Assembly (NCBI RefSeq): GCF_039566955.1 | Contig: NZ_CP154796.1 | Coordinates: 5,580,001-5,644,000, forward strand | Length of the DNA: 64,000 nt | Origin: Micromonospora sp. DSM 45708 | GTDB lineage: Bacteria > Actinomycetota > Actinomycetes > Mycobacteriales > Micromonosporaceae | Direction of reading: 5' to 3' | Shown: positions 51,728-55,323 of the stretch, in pieces | Layout of the letters: each line of letters opens with the position of its first letter | How positions within the stretch are numbered: the stretch's first letter is position 1 | Made by a program: the position numbers and the translations under genes | Notes under the pieces: generated by a model | Seen by the model: only the letters and a program-made list of their open reading frames with translations | Database searches by the model: none | Told to the model about the DNA's origin: nothing

Positions 51728-52180
51728 ATGATCCCGGAGGACAATCGGCCAGCCGGCTGGCTGCGCGACTACGGCGGCATCGAGGCCGACATCCGACAGA
51801 TGAGAGAGTTCGCCGACCGGCTACAGGACGAGGTCACGCGCAACTACTCGCCCCACCTGTCCTACATCGCCGACGACATGAAGGCCCCGGTGCCCAACCC
51901 CGCCGACGCCTTCATCGAGCTGGTCCAGTTCCTCCAGGCCCACCACGAGACGCAGAAGGCAGCGGTCAGCGCCGTGTGGGACCTGGCACCCGCCACCGGC
52001 CGGCTCGCCGAGGCCGCCGGCCGGATCGCCGCCCGCTACGACGACTCCGACGCCTTCTCCTCCGCCCGGGTCGGCGACGTCGAACGGGCACTCGCCGGCC
52101 CCACCGCCGCCGTCGCGCGCCCGACTCCACCACTCGCCGACCCCACCGGCCCCGATCAGGGGCGGGTGGTCCTGCCGTGA
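51728..52180 (+). CDS. Small helical type VII secretion-like protein (WXG100-like)
   Basis: 150 residues, mostly helical (GGIEADIRQMREFADRLQDEVTR, then VQFLQAHHETQKAAVSAVWD, LAEAAGRIAARYDDSDAF). There is no strict WXG, but the two-helix shape fits the WXG100/EspC-like superfamily, and the end of the second helix has YDDSD, which matches the Yxxx[D/E] type VII export signal. Ribosome binding site before the ATG is GGGAGG. The following gene overlaps its stop by four bases. Substrate of an unlinked ESX system, inferred. Confidence 0.65.
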   Translation: MIPEDNRPAGWLRDYGGIEADIRQMREFADRLQDEVTRNYSPHLSYIADDMKAPVPNPADAFIELVQFLQAHHETQKAAVSAVWDLAPATGRLAEAAGRIAARYDDSDAFSSARVGDVERALAGPTAAVARPTPPLADPTGPDQGRVVLP

Positions 52181-53541
52181 TCGAACGGGGCGGCGGACGC
52201 ACCTCCGGGCTCACCGACTGGCGGCTGATGGACGTGCTCAGCATGTGGGCGTGCCTCCAGGACCAGGACACCACCGGCCAGTGGAAGCAGGTCGCCGGCT
52301 GGCGCAAGGTGTGCGACCTGGCGCTGGCCCACCTCAGCCGACTGCGGGAGTACCGGCGCGGGCTCGCCGAGGCGTGGCCGCCCGAAACCAACGCCGCCGC
52401 GCGGGCGTACGTCGGCGAACTCGACCAGCTCATCGACCGGGTGCAGCGCACCCACGACGCCGCCGCCGCGAACTACGACGCGCTGGCCGCCGCCGCCCGC
52501 GCCATCGGCAGCGCCCGCAGCGAACTTCAACCGCTGTACGACGAGTACGCGACCAAACTGCGGCAGAAGCAGGCGTACGAGACGACGGTCGCCGATCCGA
52601 AGGCGGTGGCCGGAAGCCGACTTCCGGAGCGGCCCCCGGTGACGGACGACGACCTGGAGCAGTTGAACGTACGGGCGCGCGGGTTGATGACGGGGTTGAG
52701 CGGAGAACTCCAACAGGCCCAGGTCATGCTGCGCCAGCCTCCACCGAAGGCAAAACTGCCAAGGCAGGTCGAAGACCCAGATGCATACGGTAACTCTATG
52801 CCGATAATCCCGCCTATTGCGCCGGTGCCCACCGCCAGCCCTGTTAACGTCCGACATCGCCTAGATTCAAGGCCGGGCATATCAGCGGGCTCACCACATG
52901 CAAGCGCGGGACCCGTATTAGGCGCCGCAGGAAGTGGGCTTGCCTCGCCACCTCCACCCGTACAGTCGCCGTCAAATCCGATCCCAGGCACGACGGCGGG
53001 CGGAGCAACAAGTTTTCCAATTCCGCCGATAACGGGCCCCGGAACGAAACCGCAAATCCCGGCTACTCCTGGAGTAAACCAGCCAATTCGACCTCTGGGC
53101 GGTGGCACAGCACCCACTCCTTCACCTCGGTCAATACCGACGGGAGGGCTAATCGGCGGAAACTTGCCTGCGGGGATGTCAACTTCAGACGGAGGCGTAT
53201 CACCTCGCCGGGTGAACCCGGTGGGCGGCGTGATTGGCGGAGGCGGGGCGGGGACAGCGCCCACCGGGGGTGCTGGCTCACGACCCGGCAGCGGTAAGCT
53301 CATCTCACCTAATGGGTCCCACGGATTATCACCCTTAGGTGGAAGTCCCGGCTCAGCGCCAATGAGAGCAGGCTATCCCAATGGGGACACCATGCACTTG
53401 AGGAAGAGCAACGGAACTGATGAGCAGCGCCGATGGGATCCCGACAACCCTTGGCAGGTCGACAAAGGAGTAGAGCCGGTCATGCGACCGCCTGACGAGA
53501 CTGACCCCTCCGATCCAGGTCCGGCAATCGGCCTCGACTGA
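52177..53541 (+). CDS. PPE/WXG-like secreted protein with Pro/Gly-rich domain
   Basis: 454 residues; GTG overlaps the previous stop (GTGA). Residues about 1-195 are helical and resemble PPE/WXG-type proteins: QWKQVAGWRKVCDLALAHLS, LAEAWPPETNAAARAYVGEL (a WXG-like turn), long helices QLIDRVQRTHDAAAAN. The rest is Pro/Gly/Ser-rich with PIIPPIAPVPT and IPPITGPGTKPQIP, and the last 30 residues have DPDNPW and DPGPAIGLD. From about 52740 the base composition drops sharply while the frame continues. Type VII secreted substrate or cell-surface protein, inferred. Confidence 0.68.
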   Translation: MIERGGGRTSGLTDWRLMDVLSMWACLQDQDTTGQWKQVAGWRKVCDLALAHLSRLREYRRGLAEAWPPETNAAARAYVGELDQLIDRVQRTHDAAAANYDALAAAARAIGSARSELQPLYDEYATKLRQKQAYETTVADPKAVAGSRLPERPPVTDDDLEQLNVRARGLMTGLSGELQQAQVMLRQPPPKAKLPRQVEDPDAYGNSMPIIPPIAPVPTASPVNVRHRLDSRPGISAGSPHASAGPVLGAAGSGLASPPPPVQSPSNPIPGTTAGGATSFPIPPITGPGTKPQIPATPGVNQPIRPLGGGTAPTPSPRSIPTGGLIGGNLPAGMSTSDGGVSPRRVNPVGGVIGGGGAGTAPTGGAGSRPGSGKLISPNGSHGLSPLGGSPGSAPMRAGYPNGDTMHLRKSNGTDEQRRWDPDNPWQVDKGVEPVMRPPDETDPSDPGPAIGLD

Positions 53542-53543
53542 CA

Positions 53544-54656
53544 ATGACCTTCCGCCTCACAGTCGGGCTAGTCCTTTCAGTTCTCGCTGGTTCTACAATT
53601 GCGCTTCCGGTGGAACCGCCTTCAGTCGAGGTACGCAAAGATCAATGGCATCTCAAGTCACTAAAGGTGCTTGACGCACAGCAAATCAGTCAAGGCGAAG
53701 GCGTCACAGTCGCAGTTCCAGACACCGGCATCGACCTTCACCCAGACTTGGCAGGAAATGTCCTCCCTGGAACTGATGAAAGTGGTACAGGTGATGGCCG
53801 CAAAGATACTAATGGACACGGAACTTCCATGGCCGGCTTAATCGCCGCCCACGGAAGAAGCGACAATATCGGAGCACTCGGAGTAGCCCCTAAAGCCAAG
53901 CTGCTGCCTATACGATCCGAGCTTTTTGCAGGAAGAGGAGACACGAACGATCTCGCTGCGAGCATAGAATGGGCAACCGCCCATCACGCGGATATAGTCA
54001 GCATTTCGGCAGTCGCTGGCGCCAGCGCTCGTCTTCAGCAGGCGATTCAGTCAGCACTCGACGCGGACATTGTAGTAGTCGCATCCGCCGGAAATCGGCC
54101 CGAAGATGCAACCGTGGGCTACCCTGCCTCTGAGCCGGGCGTGATCGCAGTGGGCGGAATCGATCGAAACGGGCTGCATGCGGCAATTTCTGTCAGTGGA
54201 CCAGAGGTGGACGTTGTAGCTCCTGCTGTCGATATCTACAGCACCAGCTTTGGCGGCAAATACTCGAAGGGCACAGGCACGTCCAGCGCCACCGCGATCG
54301 TTGCGGGGGCCGCTGCTCTGATTCGCTCCAAATATCCCCATCTCCCCGCCGAAGAAGTCGCGCACCGGCTCACCGCGACCGCTGTGGACAAGGGGCCGCC
54401 CGGTCGCGACGACCAGTACGGGTACGGGGTCATCGACCTGGTCGCCGCGCTCACCGCCGACGTCCCCCCGATCGGCTTCGAGTCCACGGGGGTGACGGCC
54501 CCGGCCTCGACGGCAGCCGGGCCCGGGACCGGCGGTGACGACGGCACGGTCCGGGGTCTCGCGACCCTCGGAGTGCTGCTGGCCGCCGGCGGTGGCTATC
54601 TGGTCTGGCGGCGGCGACGGCGTGCCGCCGACCCGCCGCCGCGAGAGAGTCGGTAG
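53544..54656 (+). CDS. mycP: Mycosin (type VII secretion-associated subtilase)
   Basis: 370 residues. Signal peptide (MTFRLTVGLVLSVLAGSTIA), S8 peptidase with Asp in VAVPDTGIDLHPDL, His in NGHGTSMAGLIAAHG, Asn region VVASAGNRPED and Ser in GTGTSSATAIVAGAAA, then a C-terminal membrane segment (RGLATLGVLLAAGGGYLVW) and basic tail. This is the mycosin architecture (MycP), which cleaves ESX substrates at the cell surface. No EccB/C/D/E gene is near. The first 800 bases are AT-richer than the rest of the window, the last 300 are normal. A TAG stop doubles as part of the maf promoter box. Confidence 0.85.
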   Translation: MTFRLTVGLVLSVLAGSTIALPVEPPSVEVRKDQWHLKSLKVLDAQQISQGEGVTVAVPDTGIDLHPDLAGNVLPGTDESGTGDGRKDTNGHGTSMAGLIAAHGRSDNIGALGVAPKAKLLPIRSELFAGRGDTNDLAASIEWATAHHADIVSISAVAGASARLQQAIQSALDADIVVVASAGNRPEDATVGYPASEPGVIAVGGIDRNGLHAAISVSGPEVDVVAPAVDIYSTSFGGKYSKGTGTSSATAIVAGAAALIRSKYPHLPAEEVAHRLTATAVDKGPPGRDDQYGYGVIDLVAALTADVPPIGFESTGVTAPASTAAGPGTGGDDGTVRGLATLGVLLAAGGGYLVWRRRRRAADPPPRESR

Positions 54657-54666
54657 CGTCGGCGGG

Positions 54667-55323
54667 GTGTCGAACTCCGTGCCGCTGCGCCTCGTACTCG
54701 CCTCGCAGAGTCCCGCCCGCCGCAAGCTGCTCCAGGCCGCCGGGATCGAGCCTGACGTGTTGGTCAGCGGCGTCGACGAGTCGCAGGTGGTCAGTGACCG
54801 GGCCGAGGAGTTGTGCCTCGAACTGGCCCGGTTGAAGGCGCAGGCCGTGCTCGGCCGGCTGCGTTCCGTCCCGGGCGAGCGCACGCTGGTGCTCGGCTGT
54901 GACTCGGTGCTCGCGTTCGACGGCGAGATCCTCGGCAAGCCGGCGGACGCGGCCGACGCCACCCGGCGGTGGCAGCGGATGCGCGGGCGCAGTGGTGTGC
55001 TGCACACCGGGCACTGCCTGATCGACGTGGCACCCGGGGCTCGCGCGGAGGCGGTCGCCTCGACCACGGTGCACTTCGCCGACATCAGCGACGAGGAGAT
55101 CGCCGCGTACGTGGCGACGGGCGAGCCGCTGGCGGTGGCCGGGGCGTTCACCATCGACGGGCTGGGCGGCGCGTTCCTGACCGGCATCGAGGGCGATCCG
55201 GGCACGGTGGTGGGGCTGTCCCTGCCGCTGTTGCGTCGGCTCCTCGGCGAGTGGGGGTTGAGCGTCGTGGACCTGTGGACGAAGGTCGCGCCAGGGGGCC
55301 AGGAGATCGAACATCTCGGCTAA
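54667..55323 (+). CDS. Maf-like nucleotide pyrophosphatase
   Basis: 218 residues. MAF motif at the N-terminus LRLVLASQSPARRKLL, GVDESQVV, CDSVLAFDGEILGKP with the catalytic Asp, and VAGAFTIDGLGGAFLTGIEGDPGTVVGLSLP. Hydrolyses modified or canonical NTPs, or septum-related substrates; actinobacterial Maf also links to acyl-CoA carboxylase loci. The GTG at 54667 is seven bases after TAGCGT (54654-54659), which overlaps the mycosin stop. Confidence 0.9.
   Translation: MSNSVPLRLVLASQSPARRKLLQAAGIEPDVLVSGVDESQVVSDRAEELCLELARLKAQAVLGRLRSVPGERTLVLGCDSVLAFDGEILGKPADAADATRRWQRMRGRSGVLHTGHCLIDVAPGARAEAVASTTVHFADISDEEIAAYVATGEPLAVAGAFTIDGLGGAFLTGIEGDPGTVVGLSLPLLRRLLGEWGLSVVDLWTKVAPGGQEIEHLG

Follow-up and report, generated by a model that had tools for sequence, protein, structure and literature searches.

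A multi-allelic low-GC cassette spanning a type VII secretion-like gene and the adjoining mycosin gene in Micromonospora

Locus organization and encoded proteins

The stretch of DNA analyzed here (the window, 64,000 nucleotides; all coordinates are positions within it) derives from Micromonospora sp. DSM 45708 (GCF_039566955.1, NZ_CP154796.1, 5,580,001-5,644,000). It hosts two adjoining genes, one starting at position 52177 (the 52177 gene) and encoding a type VII secretion system (T7SS)-like protein, the other encoding a mycosin, which share an internal tract of low GC content. Sequence comparisons across the genus identify this tract as a multi-allelic cassette, which close relatives exchange in frame through its conserved flanks. 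The features of the locus are as follows, with GC3 denoting the GC fraction at third codon positions and pLDDT the predicted local distance difference test score.

51728..52180, + strand: open reading frame of a 150-residue PE/Esx-like protein with the YxxxD motif YDDSD; its end overlaps the start of the 52177 gene
52177..52731, + strand: 5' anchor, codons 1-185 of the 454 codons of the 52177 gene; conserved helical domain with a predicted PPE-like fold, high GC3
52699..52746, + strand: 5' junction, 52177 codons 175-190; the final helix ends, conserved DNA with GAA/CAA follows, then variability begins
52702..54357, + strand: low-GC3 tract as delimited by maximum likelihood
52732..54290, + strand: hypervariable allelic cassette, 52177 codons ~186-454 plus mycosin codons 1-249
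52747..53538, + strand: Pro/Gly-rich variable tail of the 52177 protein, predicted to be disordered (pLDDT, tail identities)
53203..53289, + strand: conserved tail island, RRVNPxGGVIGGGGAGTAPTGGAGSRPG region (alignment of 39 sequences, codon profile)
53434..53532, + strand: conserved C-terminal tail islands WDPDxPW and DPGPAIG (alignment of 39 sequences), present in three Paractinoplanes loci too
53544..54656, + strand: mycosin (TIGR03921) with catalytic D60, H92, and S247, oxyanion N184, and membrane helix 335-361
54291..54653, + strand: 3' anchor, the conserved 3' part of the mycosin gene (end of the protease fold, linker, membrane helix)
54685..55323, + strand: gene which we take to be maf-like, start not fixed; conserved flank serving as marker

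The mycosin scores above the cut-off of its family model TIGR03921 (282.1 versus 278.75 bits), and D60, H92, N184, and S247 are kept in 144 out of 145 orthologues. Its structural model predicts a subtilisin fold followed by the C-terminal membrane helix; in a comparison with the PDB the best rows were subtilisins, with MycP1 (4m1z) at rank 48 and a template modeling score of 0.78 by target length. Matches to EccC and EccD above the cut-off were found at two loci each, only at 6.01-6.02 and 6.91-6.92 Mb, compared with 5.63 Mb for the mycosin, which is therefore termed an orphan mycosin. For the 52177 protein, the AlphaFold2 model contains confident helices over residues 20-186, and the six best rows of a second structural comparison were PPE proteins. 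Among 39 members of the 52177 family no match to the Pfam PPE family was obtained (19 families were found at E up to 1), and a WXG100 match occurred in one of them (E 0.16). From residue 206 onward the pLDDT of the tail is mostly below 50, with 64 as the value of the best block after residue 210.

The product of the preceding 51728 gene carries YxxxD/E after residue 80 in 116 out of 120 orthologues, a motif which directs export by T7SS. It gave neither a Pfam match at E 0.01 nor an NCBIfam match at E 1; motif, length, and position suggest a PE/Esx-like protein. The run of five genes from 51728 to a methyltransferase gene is contiguous in 105 of the 122 loci having all five.

Composition of the tract in this genome

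The original prediction had described a low-GC mosaic tract at 52740-54345 with both edges inside open reading frames, and this description is confirmed. The GC content of this region is 0.595, while the lowest non-overlapping stretch of 1606 bases elsewhere in the window has 0.661 (50-base steps), and the count of 28 G/C out of 60 given for 53641-53700 was exact on recount. Maximum-likelihood segmentation of synonymous third positions placed the best segment from 52702 (range 52684-52741) to 54357 (range 54342-54384), with a GC3 of 0.530 inside and 0.925 outside and a log-likelihood gain of 145.5. The edges lie within open genes, at about codon 176 of the 52177 gene and about codon 272 of the mycosin gene. 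Evaluated in bins of 25 codons, GC3 ranges from 0.80 to 1.00 up to codon 175 of the 52177 gene and from 0.36 to 0.80 thereafter; in the mycosin gene it ranges from 0.32 to 0.72 up to codon 275 and from 0.76 to 0.96 beyond. The transitions had also been called abrupt, which holds true for this genome, where the edges are sharp within tens of bases, but not for the genus average, where the 3' rise forms a slope over mycosin codons ~217-280. Low GC as a general mycosin trait was ruled out on the basis of five mycosin-like genes examined out of nine other subtilase matches in the same genome: their mean GC3 is 0.93-0.96, and the lowest 25-codon bin, located at the start of one of them, has 0.64.

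Distribution across the genus and beyond

A mycosin orthologue at E 1e-75 or better is present in 152 out of 160 genomes of the genus. We fetched 147 of these 152 loci, and all 147 contain a match to the 52177 protein as well as one to the mycosin. The set of 139 genomes used for comparison leaves out eight of them, with a short 52177 gene (L129, L153), with no usable mycosin (L066, interrupted by a stop codon, and L173, not extracted), or without a full maf gene (L018, L154, L165, L166). The data mostly comprise one genome per species, and the pairs analyzed below have genomes in common and hence are not independent.

Mean GC3 over the 139 genomes is 0.906 for the flank and 0.585 for the tract (standard deviation 0.041). 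The tract lies at least 0.15 under the flank in 138 genomes and at least 0.25 under it in 130; the tract of this window is the sixth lowest. Mapped codon by codon in 47 genomes (46 for the mycosin), the fall and rise of GC3 occur at the same homologous codons. Within the 52177 gene, genus-wide GC3 amounts to 0.89-0.97 per 20-codon bin up to codon 160 and to 0.79 at codons 161-180. The 52177 protein, used as query against named genomes, returned 37 loci, 33 from Micromonospora, one from Micromonosporaceae, and three from Paractinoplanes. The latter three carry the same genes; their 52177 homologue shows the GC3 drop at the corresponding position, and their mycosin gene is low in GC3.

Eight genomes lack a strong mycosin orthologue, and six of these measure 5.1-5.4 Mb. 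The 52177 protein has a partial match in six of the eight and none in two; in those with partial matches (G057, G068, G090, G095, G015, and G167, within L213-L220), five of the six being 5.2-5.4 Mb in size, the locus may be lost or changed. Further single loci deviate from the common pattern. Locus L009 (genome G014) has the highest tract GC3 of the 139 (0.79) and the smallest step, and its mycosin frame continues without a stop into maf, which possibly reflects an assembly error or a partly ameliorated allele. In L066 (G135), an in-frame TGA interrupts the mycosin gene while the 52177 frame is open, so that the protease may have been lost or the sequence may contain an error. The usually short spacer between mycosin and maf hosts extra frames in some genomes, which by eye are PIN-domain-like (L155, L156) or nucleotidyltransferase-like (L128); otherwise, long spacers yielded assorted frames. 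TTA codons occur in 115 of the 139 tracts, with four in this window's tract (52747-54278), compared with 11 of the 139 flanks of similar length. TTA is a tRNA-limited codon in Streptomyces; if the same applied here, the 52177/mycosin pair would be developmentally gated.

Tract content is decoupled from the flanks

In order to compare tract and flank, the flank was defined as 52177 codons 1-165, mycosin codons 266-320, and maf, and the tract as 52177 codons 181-454 and mycosin codons 31-240. As judged from these alignments, genomes with near-equal flanks usually hold very different alleles. Out of 68 pairs with a flank divergence below 0.06, tract divergence is at least 0.35 (35-50%) in 60, below 0.20 in seven, and intermediate in one; the corresponding numbers for the 81 pairs at a flank divergence of 0.06-0.08 are 64, nine, and eight. 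At equal flank distance, tract divergence is bimodal (~0.1 versus ~0.43), and among close pairs it shows no increase with flank divergence. The 139 genomes fall into 117 allele families (25% tract divergence) and 105 flank clusters (6%), and in 55 of the 72 genomes having a flank relative below 0.065 the allele differs from the nearest one.

The same picture emerged when pairs were picked irrespective of the region tested, by the outer genes alone (maf, methyltransferase, and 51728 codons 1-120), with different alleles in 52 out of 59 pairs. Within these 52 pairs, median divergence is 5.3% at 52177 codons 161-185 (24.0% genus-wide) and 5.6% at mycosin codons 252-275 (23.6% genus-wide), while the tail with 49% and mycosin codons 1-240 with 41% are at about their genus-wide values. 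Sub-segments of the 5' anchor show median divergences of 2.5-6.8% between close genomes with different alleles. As a control, another mycosin compared in 43 close pairs from 17 genomes has a median divergence of 4.8% (1.9-6.7%), against a tract median of 43%.

At the protein level, the best 120 of 628 database proteins were taken for the 52177 protein and 119 were compared, with species names being the labels of the source database. Thirteen pairs within six named species (M. aurantiaca, M. chalcea, M. marina, M. tulbaghiae, M. echinaurantiaca, and M. purpureochromogenes) have N-terminal domains of 96-100% identity, with tails only 37-55% identical in 12 pairs and 78% in one. Where N-terminal domains are identical irrespective of species name, the tails share 37-47% identity in nine out of nine pairs. 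Several very different alleles are present within named species at one locus with a conserved flank, as expected for a polymorphic specificity cassette.

Phylogenetic signals of tract and flank are in conflict, and the allele lineages, as reconstructed from the sequences, cut across the flank phylogeny. The rank correlation of pairwise distances is 0.73 between N-terminal domain and maf and 0.53 between N-terminal domain and mycosin end, compared with 0.23 between N-terminal domain and tail and 0.35 between whole flank and whole tract. The question raised by the original prediction, whether the best relatives of the tract differ from those of the flanks, is answered by an agreement of the nearest relative in only 28 out of 139 genomes; in 53 of the 139, the tract lineage is common to a genome more distant than the closest flank relative. 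In approximately unbiased (AU) tests on 30 genomes from tight groups, the tract data reject the flank tree (log-likelihood difference 2601.9, p-AU 4.6e-65) and the flank data reject the tract tree (3843.6, p-AU 9e-4). Lineages of the tract tree combine genomes of three flank clades, which fits the expectation for trans-species sharing.

Junctions and haplotype unity

The edges of allelic divergence are situated slightly inside the low-GC3 edges. In 70 close pairs whose alleles differ, the 5' breakpoint maps to 52177 codons 185-194 in all 70, whereas the 3' breakpoint, most often at mycosin codon 249, maps to codons 242-263 in 43 and to codons 191-231 in 27. At the 5' edge the last confidently modeled helix ends (residue 186), and the commonest 3' edge coincides with the catalytic S247; judging from sequence and model, the 5' edge and the end of the folded N-terminal domain lie no more than a few codons apart in every examined pair. 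The codons just ahead of the variable part (52699-52746) are themselves conserved, with GAA at codon 177 in 97% of the 143 genomes having Glu there and CAA at codons 179, 180, and 182 in 74-78% of the genomes with that residue, although the flanks favor G- or C-ending codons. They possibly represent a DNA-level signal or a preferred crossover zone. This GAA/CAA run is absent as a run from the three Paractinoplanes loci. Outside the tract, two stretches evolve fast in close pairs with different alleles, namely mycosin codons 313-350 (median 12%) and 51728 codons 121-150 (6.7%, exceeding 12% in a third of the pairs). As mycosin codons 321-340 are equally or more variable in same-allele pairs, we read these outer stretches as linkers rather than as part of a swap.

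To follow the cassette as a unit, the tract was cut into six segments, with pairs called alike at a divergence below 0.25. Eighteen pairs are alike in all six. The first tail segment is alike in 21 pairs, of which 19, 21, and 21 are also alike in the three respective mycosin segments. In nearly every allele-sharing pair, the 52177 tail and the mycosin protease domain are inherited as one haplotype. The last mycosin segment is alike in 100 pairs in all, a wider sharing that is consistent with leaky 3' exchange together with stronger constraint.

Within allele lineages, the ratio of nonsynonymous to synonymous substitution rates (dN/dS) in the 18 same-allele pairs is 0.26 for the tail, 0.12 for the mycosin core, 0.46 for mycosin codons 1-30, and 0.11-0.13 for N-terminal domain and maf. 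These values indicate purifying selection on the proteins within an allele lineage; the alleles accordingly look old and constrained, not hypermutating. Variability within the mycosin is not significantly enriched at the substrate pocket (p = 0.35, using contact positions of subtilisin BPN'), and its most variable stretch, seen after the fact, lies at positions equivalent to 94-101.

Fourfold-degenerate tract sites in 12 triplets recorded 181 AT-to-GC and 224 GC-to-AT changes, and hence no amelioration toward high GC. The per-site frequency of GC-to-AT change in the tract is ~2.5 times that in the flank (0.217 versus 0.085), with similar frequencies of AT-to-GC change (0.323 versus 0.357). The implied equilibrium GC3 of the tract is 0.60; for the flank the same method gives 0.81 although the actual value is 0.93, so that only the contrast between tract and flank should be used. 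Fourfold-site diversity inside the tract is mostly 0.65-0.75, i.e., near saturation.

Alternative explanations

The sharp composition edges inside two open frames had originally been attributed to homologous recombination importing the interior of a related cassette from a lower-GC donor. The recombination part of this proposal stands, as the pairs with swapped tracts between near-equal flanks and the conflicting trees support in-frame exchange of the interior of a related cassette via conserved flanks. A single recent import from a lower-GC donor, on the other hand, is hardly credible in view of a tract that is low in all but one of the 139 genomes and in the three Paractinoplanes loci, of the missing excess of AT-to-GC change, and of a tract GC3 in this genome that is only the sixth lowest. 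A low-GC block at the same place throughout the genus had been named in advance as the observation that would speak against import; such a block is found, but its inheritance is not simply vertical, its content being reshuffled between relatives. A search of plasmid records with the 52177 protein gave no match at E 1e-5, which also led us to discard plasmid carriage, and no nearest relative of this allele in a lower-GC genus turned up in searches that were not designed to exclude one. Phage records matching the mycosin number 35, with less than 60% identity among the matches listed (10 of 35). If a site-specific recombinase swapped the cassette at fixed junctions, the confinement of the 5' breakpoint to 10 codons in every pair and the conserved DNA just ahead of it would be accounted for, but the constant 5' junction can also be explained by its position at the end of the last helix. 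Such an enzyme is highly improbable given a 3' breakpoint scattered over mycosin codons 191-263 and a cassette made of parts of two genes, neither of them a known recombinase (no recombinase-directed search was made).

Local hypermutation or, still without exchange, very rapid in situ diversification would agree with divergence that begins at one nearly fixed codon in all 70 pairs and with the near-saturated fourfold sites. We regard it as very unlikely, since it conflicts with the two-state tract divergence at equal flank distance, with allele lineages common to several flank clades, and with purifying selection within alleles. No second copy serving as template, as a diversity-generating retroelement would require together with a reverse transcriptase, was found either: 1521 tract bases match only themselves in the own genome (E up to 0.01), a search that a short, much-changed template could escape and that did not cover reverse transcriptases. 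That the tail simply diverges fast as an unconstrained, disordered region under relaxed codon selection fits its predicted disorder; however, the folded and catalytically intact protease domain behaves alike, within-allele dN/dS is low, and the pattern is two-state rather than gradual, leaving this explanation a negligible chance. Finally, exchange might proceed as proposed with the low GC being selected for itself, for instance by an Lsr2-like silencer of AT-rich DNA or for slow translation. The narrow range in which tract GC3 is held over the genus, the conserved A-ending codons at the 5' junction, and the enrichment of TTA codons argue in this direction. Past the junction (codons 177-182), in contrast, no tail codon has one A- or T-ending codon in more than 60% of genomes, in the mycosin part of the tract codon 193 alone does, and fourfold diversity is near its maximum. 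We consider selection on GC itself unlikely.

Proposed mechanism

Taken together, we consider it probable that the tract represents one allele of a highly polymorphic specificity cassette, encoding a secreted T7SS-type protein and its cognate protease, which is kept by balancing selection and has become low in GC owing to lost recombination. The specificity switching of a surface pair suggested by the original prediction is in line with this, as a T7SS-like protein and a protease are affected and the pattern suggests diversification of specificity. The products of 51728 and 52177 would pair up as a PE/PPE-like heterodimer, to be exported through one of two ESX-type machineries whose genes are located at other sites in the genome. 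Outside the membrane, the mycosin, which is anchored in it, may then process or handle its cognate disordered tail, by analogy to MycP1 and EspB. A phage, a competitor, or the strain's own kin might recognize the tail or the processed product, so that rare alleles would be favored. Such an advantage could maintain many alleles over long times, with ordinary homologous recombination in the conserved flanks spreading them among close relatives. The cassette is apparently under balancing selection, for which a long-term rare-allele advantage acting on a surface or secreted pair would be the most economical cause.

The low GC content is most plausibly a consequence of the same situation. With alleles presumably too dissimilar for recombination among themselves, the tract would be placed outside a recombination-linked, GC-favoring process and drift near to its mutational equilibrium (GC3 ~0.6), while flanks in the same frames stay at ~0.9. 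Gene-wide expression level and replication timing cannot account for a GC step within single reading frames. GC-biased gene conversion, with a higher GC3 of recombining than of non-recombining genes in bacteria (Lassalle et al. 2015, PMC4450053), predicts a lower GC3 where recombination is lacking. In distinction from the comparison between genes described there, GC3 falls by ~0.3 inside single reading frames here.

Relation to known systems and significance

By analogy, TraA of Myxococcus and ComQXPA of Bacillus are the closest in kind to the cassette. Staphylococcal agr groups, like the Bacillus ComQXP pherotypes, share with it a polymorphic locus at a fixed place and co-inherited partners, and divergent blocks have edges inside comP, agrB, and agrC. 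The partners here, unlike in both systems, are a T7SS-like protein and a mycosin, with no receptor kinase among the five genes compared. ComQXPA is described as a fixed-place locus, highly polymorphic among strains of one species, whose co-inherited partners set the specificity groups (PMC4008528); the Micromonospora locus has far more alleles than the four pherotype groups named there for B. subtilis. For TraA, 90 alleles and more than 60 predicted recognition groups are described across an order, with exchange of the variable domain being inferred (PMC6372800). A variable domain within a conserved protein is common to both cases; whereas TraA is described as a cell-surface receptor with TraB as partner, the parts that co-vary here, in an actinomycete, are a tail predicted to be disordered and a protease domain. 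MycP1 processes EspB in mycobacteria (PMC5156307), and similar to EspB and PPE substrates a membrane mycosin adjoins a protein with a predicted PPE-like helical domain and a disordered tail. The present mycosin differs in being encoded apart from EccC and EccD and in the hypervariability of tail and protease domain. Among the titles and abstract starts listed in searches of open-access literature, neither such a tail/mycosin polymorphism nor a paper on this locus was found.

Swapped alleles amid near-unchanged flanks in soil bacteria resemble immune or mating-type genes of higher organisms, and such an abundance of old, co-inherited alleles at a single conserved chromosomal site is, to our knowledge, rare among bacterial loci. 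As a tentative and more far-reaching proposal, the locus might constitute a bacterial recognition system reminiscent of the major histocompatibility complex or of self-incompatibility: a type VII-exported PPE-like protein with an allele-specific tail, matured only by its own mycosin, would mark kin or evade phages and rivals, with many alleles held across species by rare-allele advantage, and the loss of ~0.3 in GC3 where recombination stops would show that high GC depends on recombination.

A low-GC mosaic inside a gene need not imply a foreign donor. The step within the genes provides a direct way to test what makes GC-rich bacteria GC-rich, with expression, replication timing, and function being constant across it and the differing factor being whether alleles can recombine. 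With a probable secreted-protein tail and a mycosin as its variable parts, the cassette also suggests a testable role in recognition or evasion for type VII secretion outside mycobacteria.

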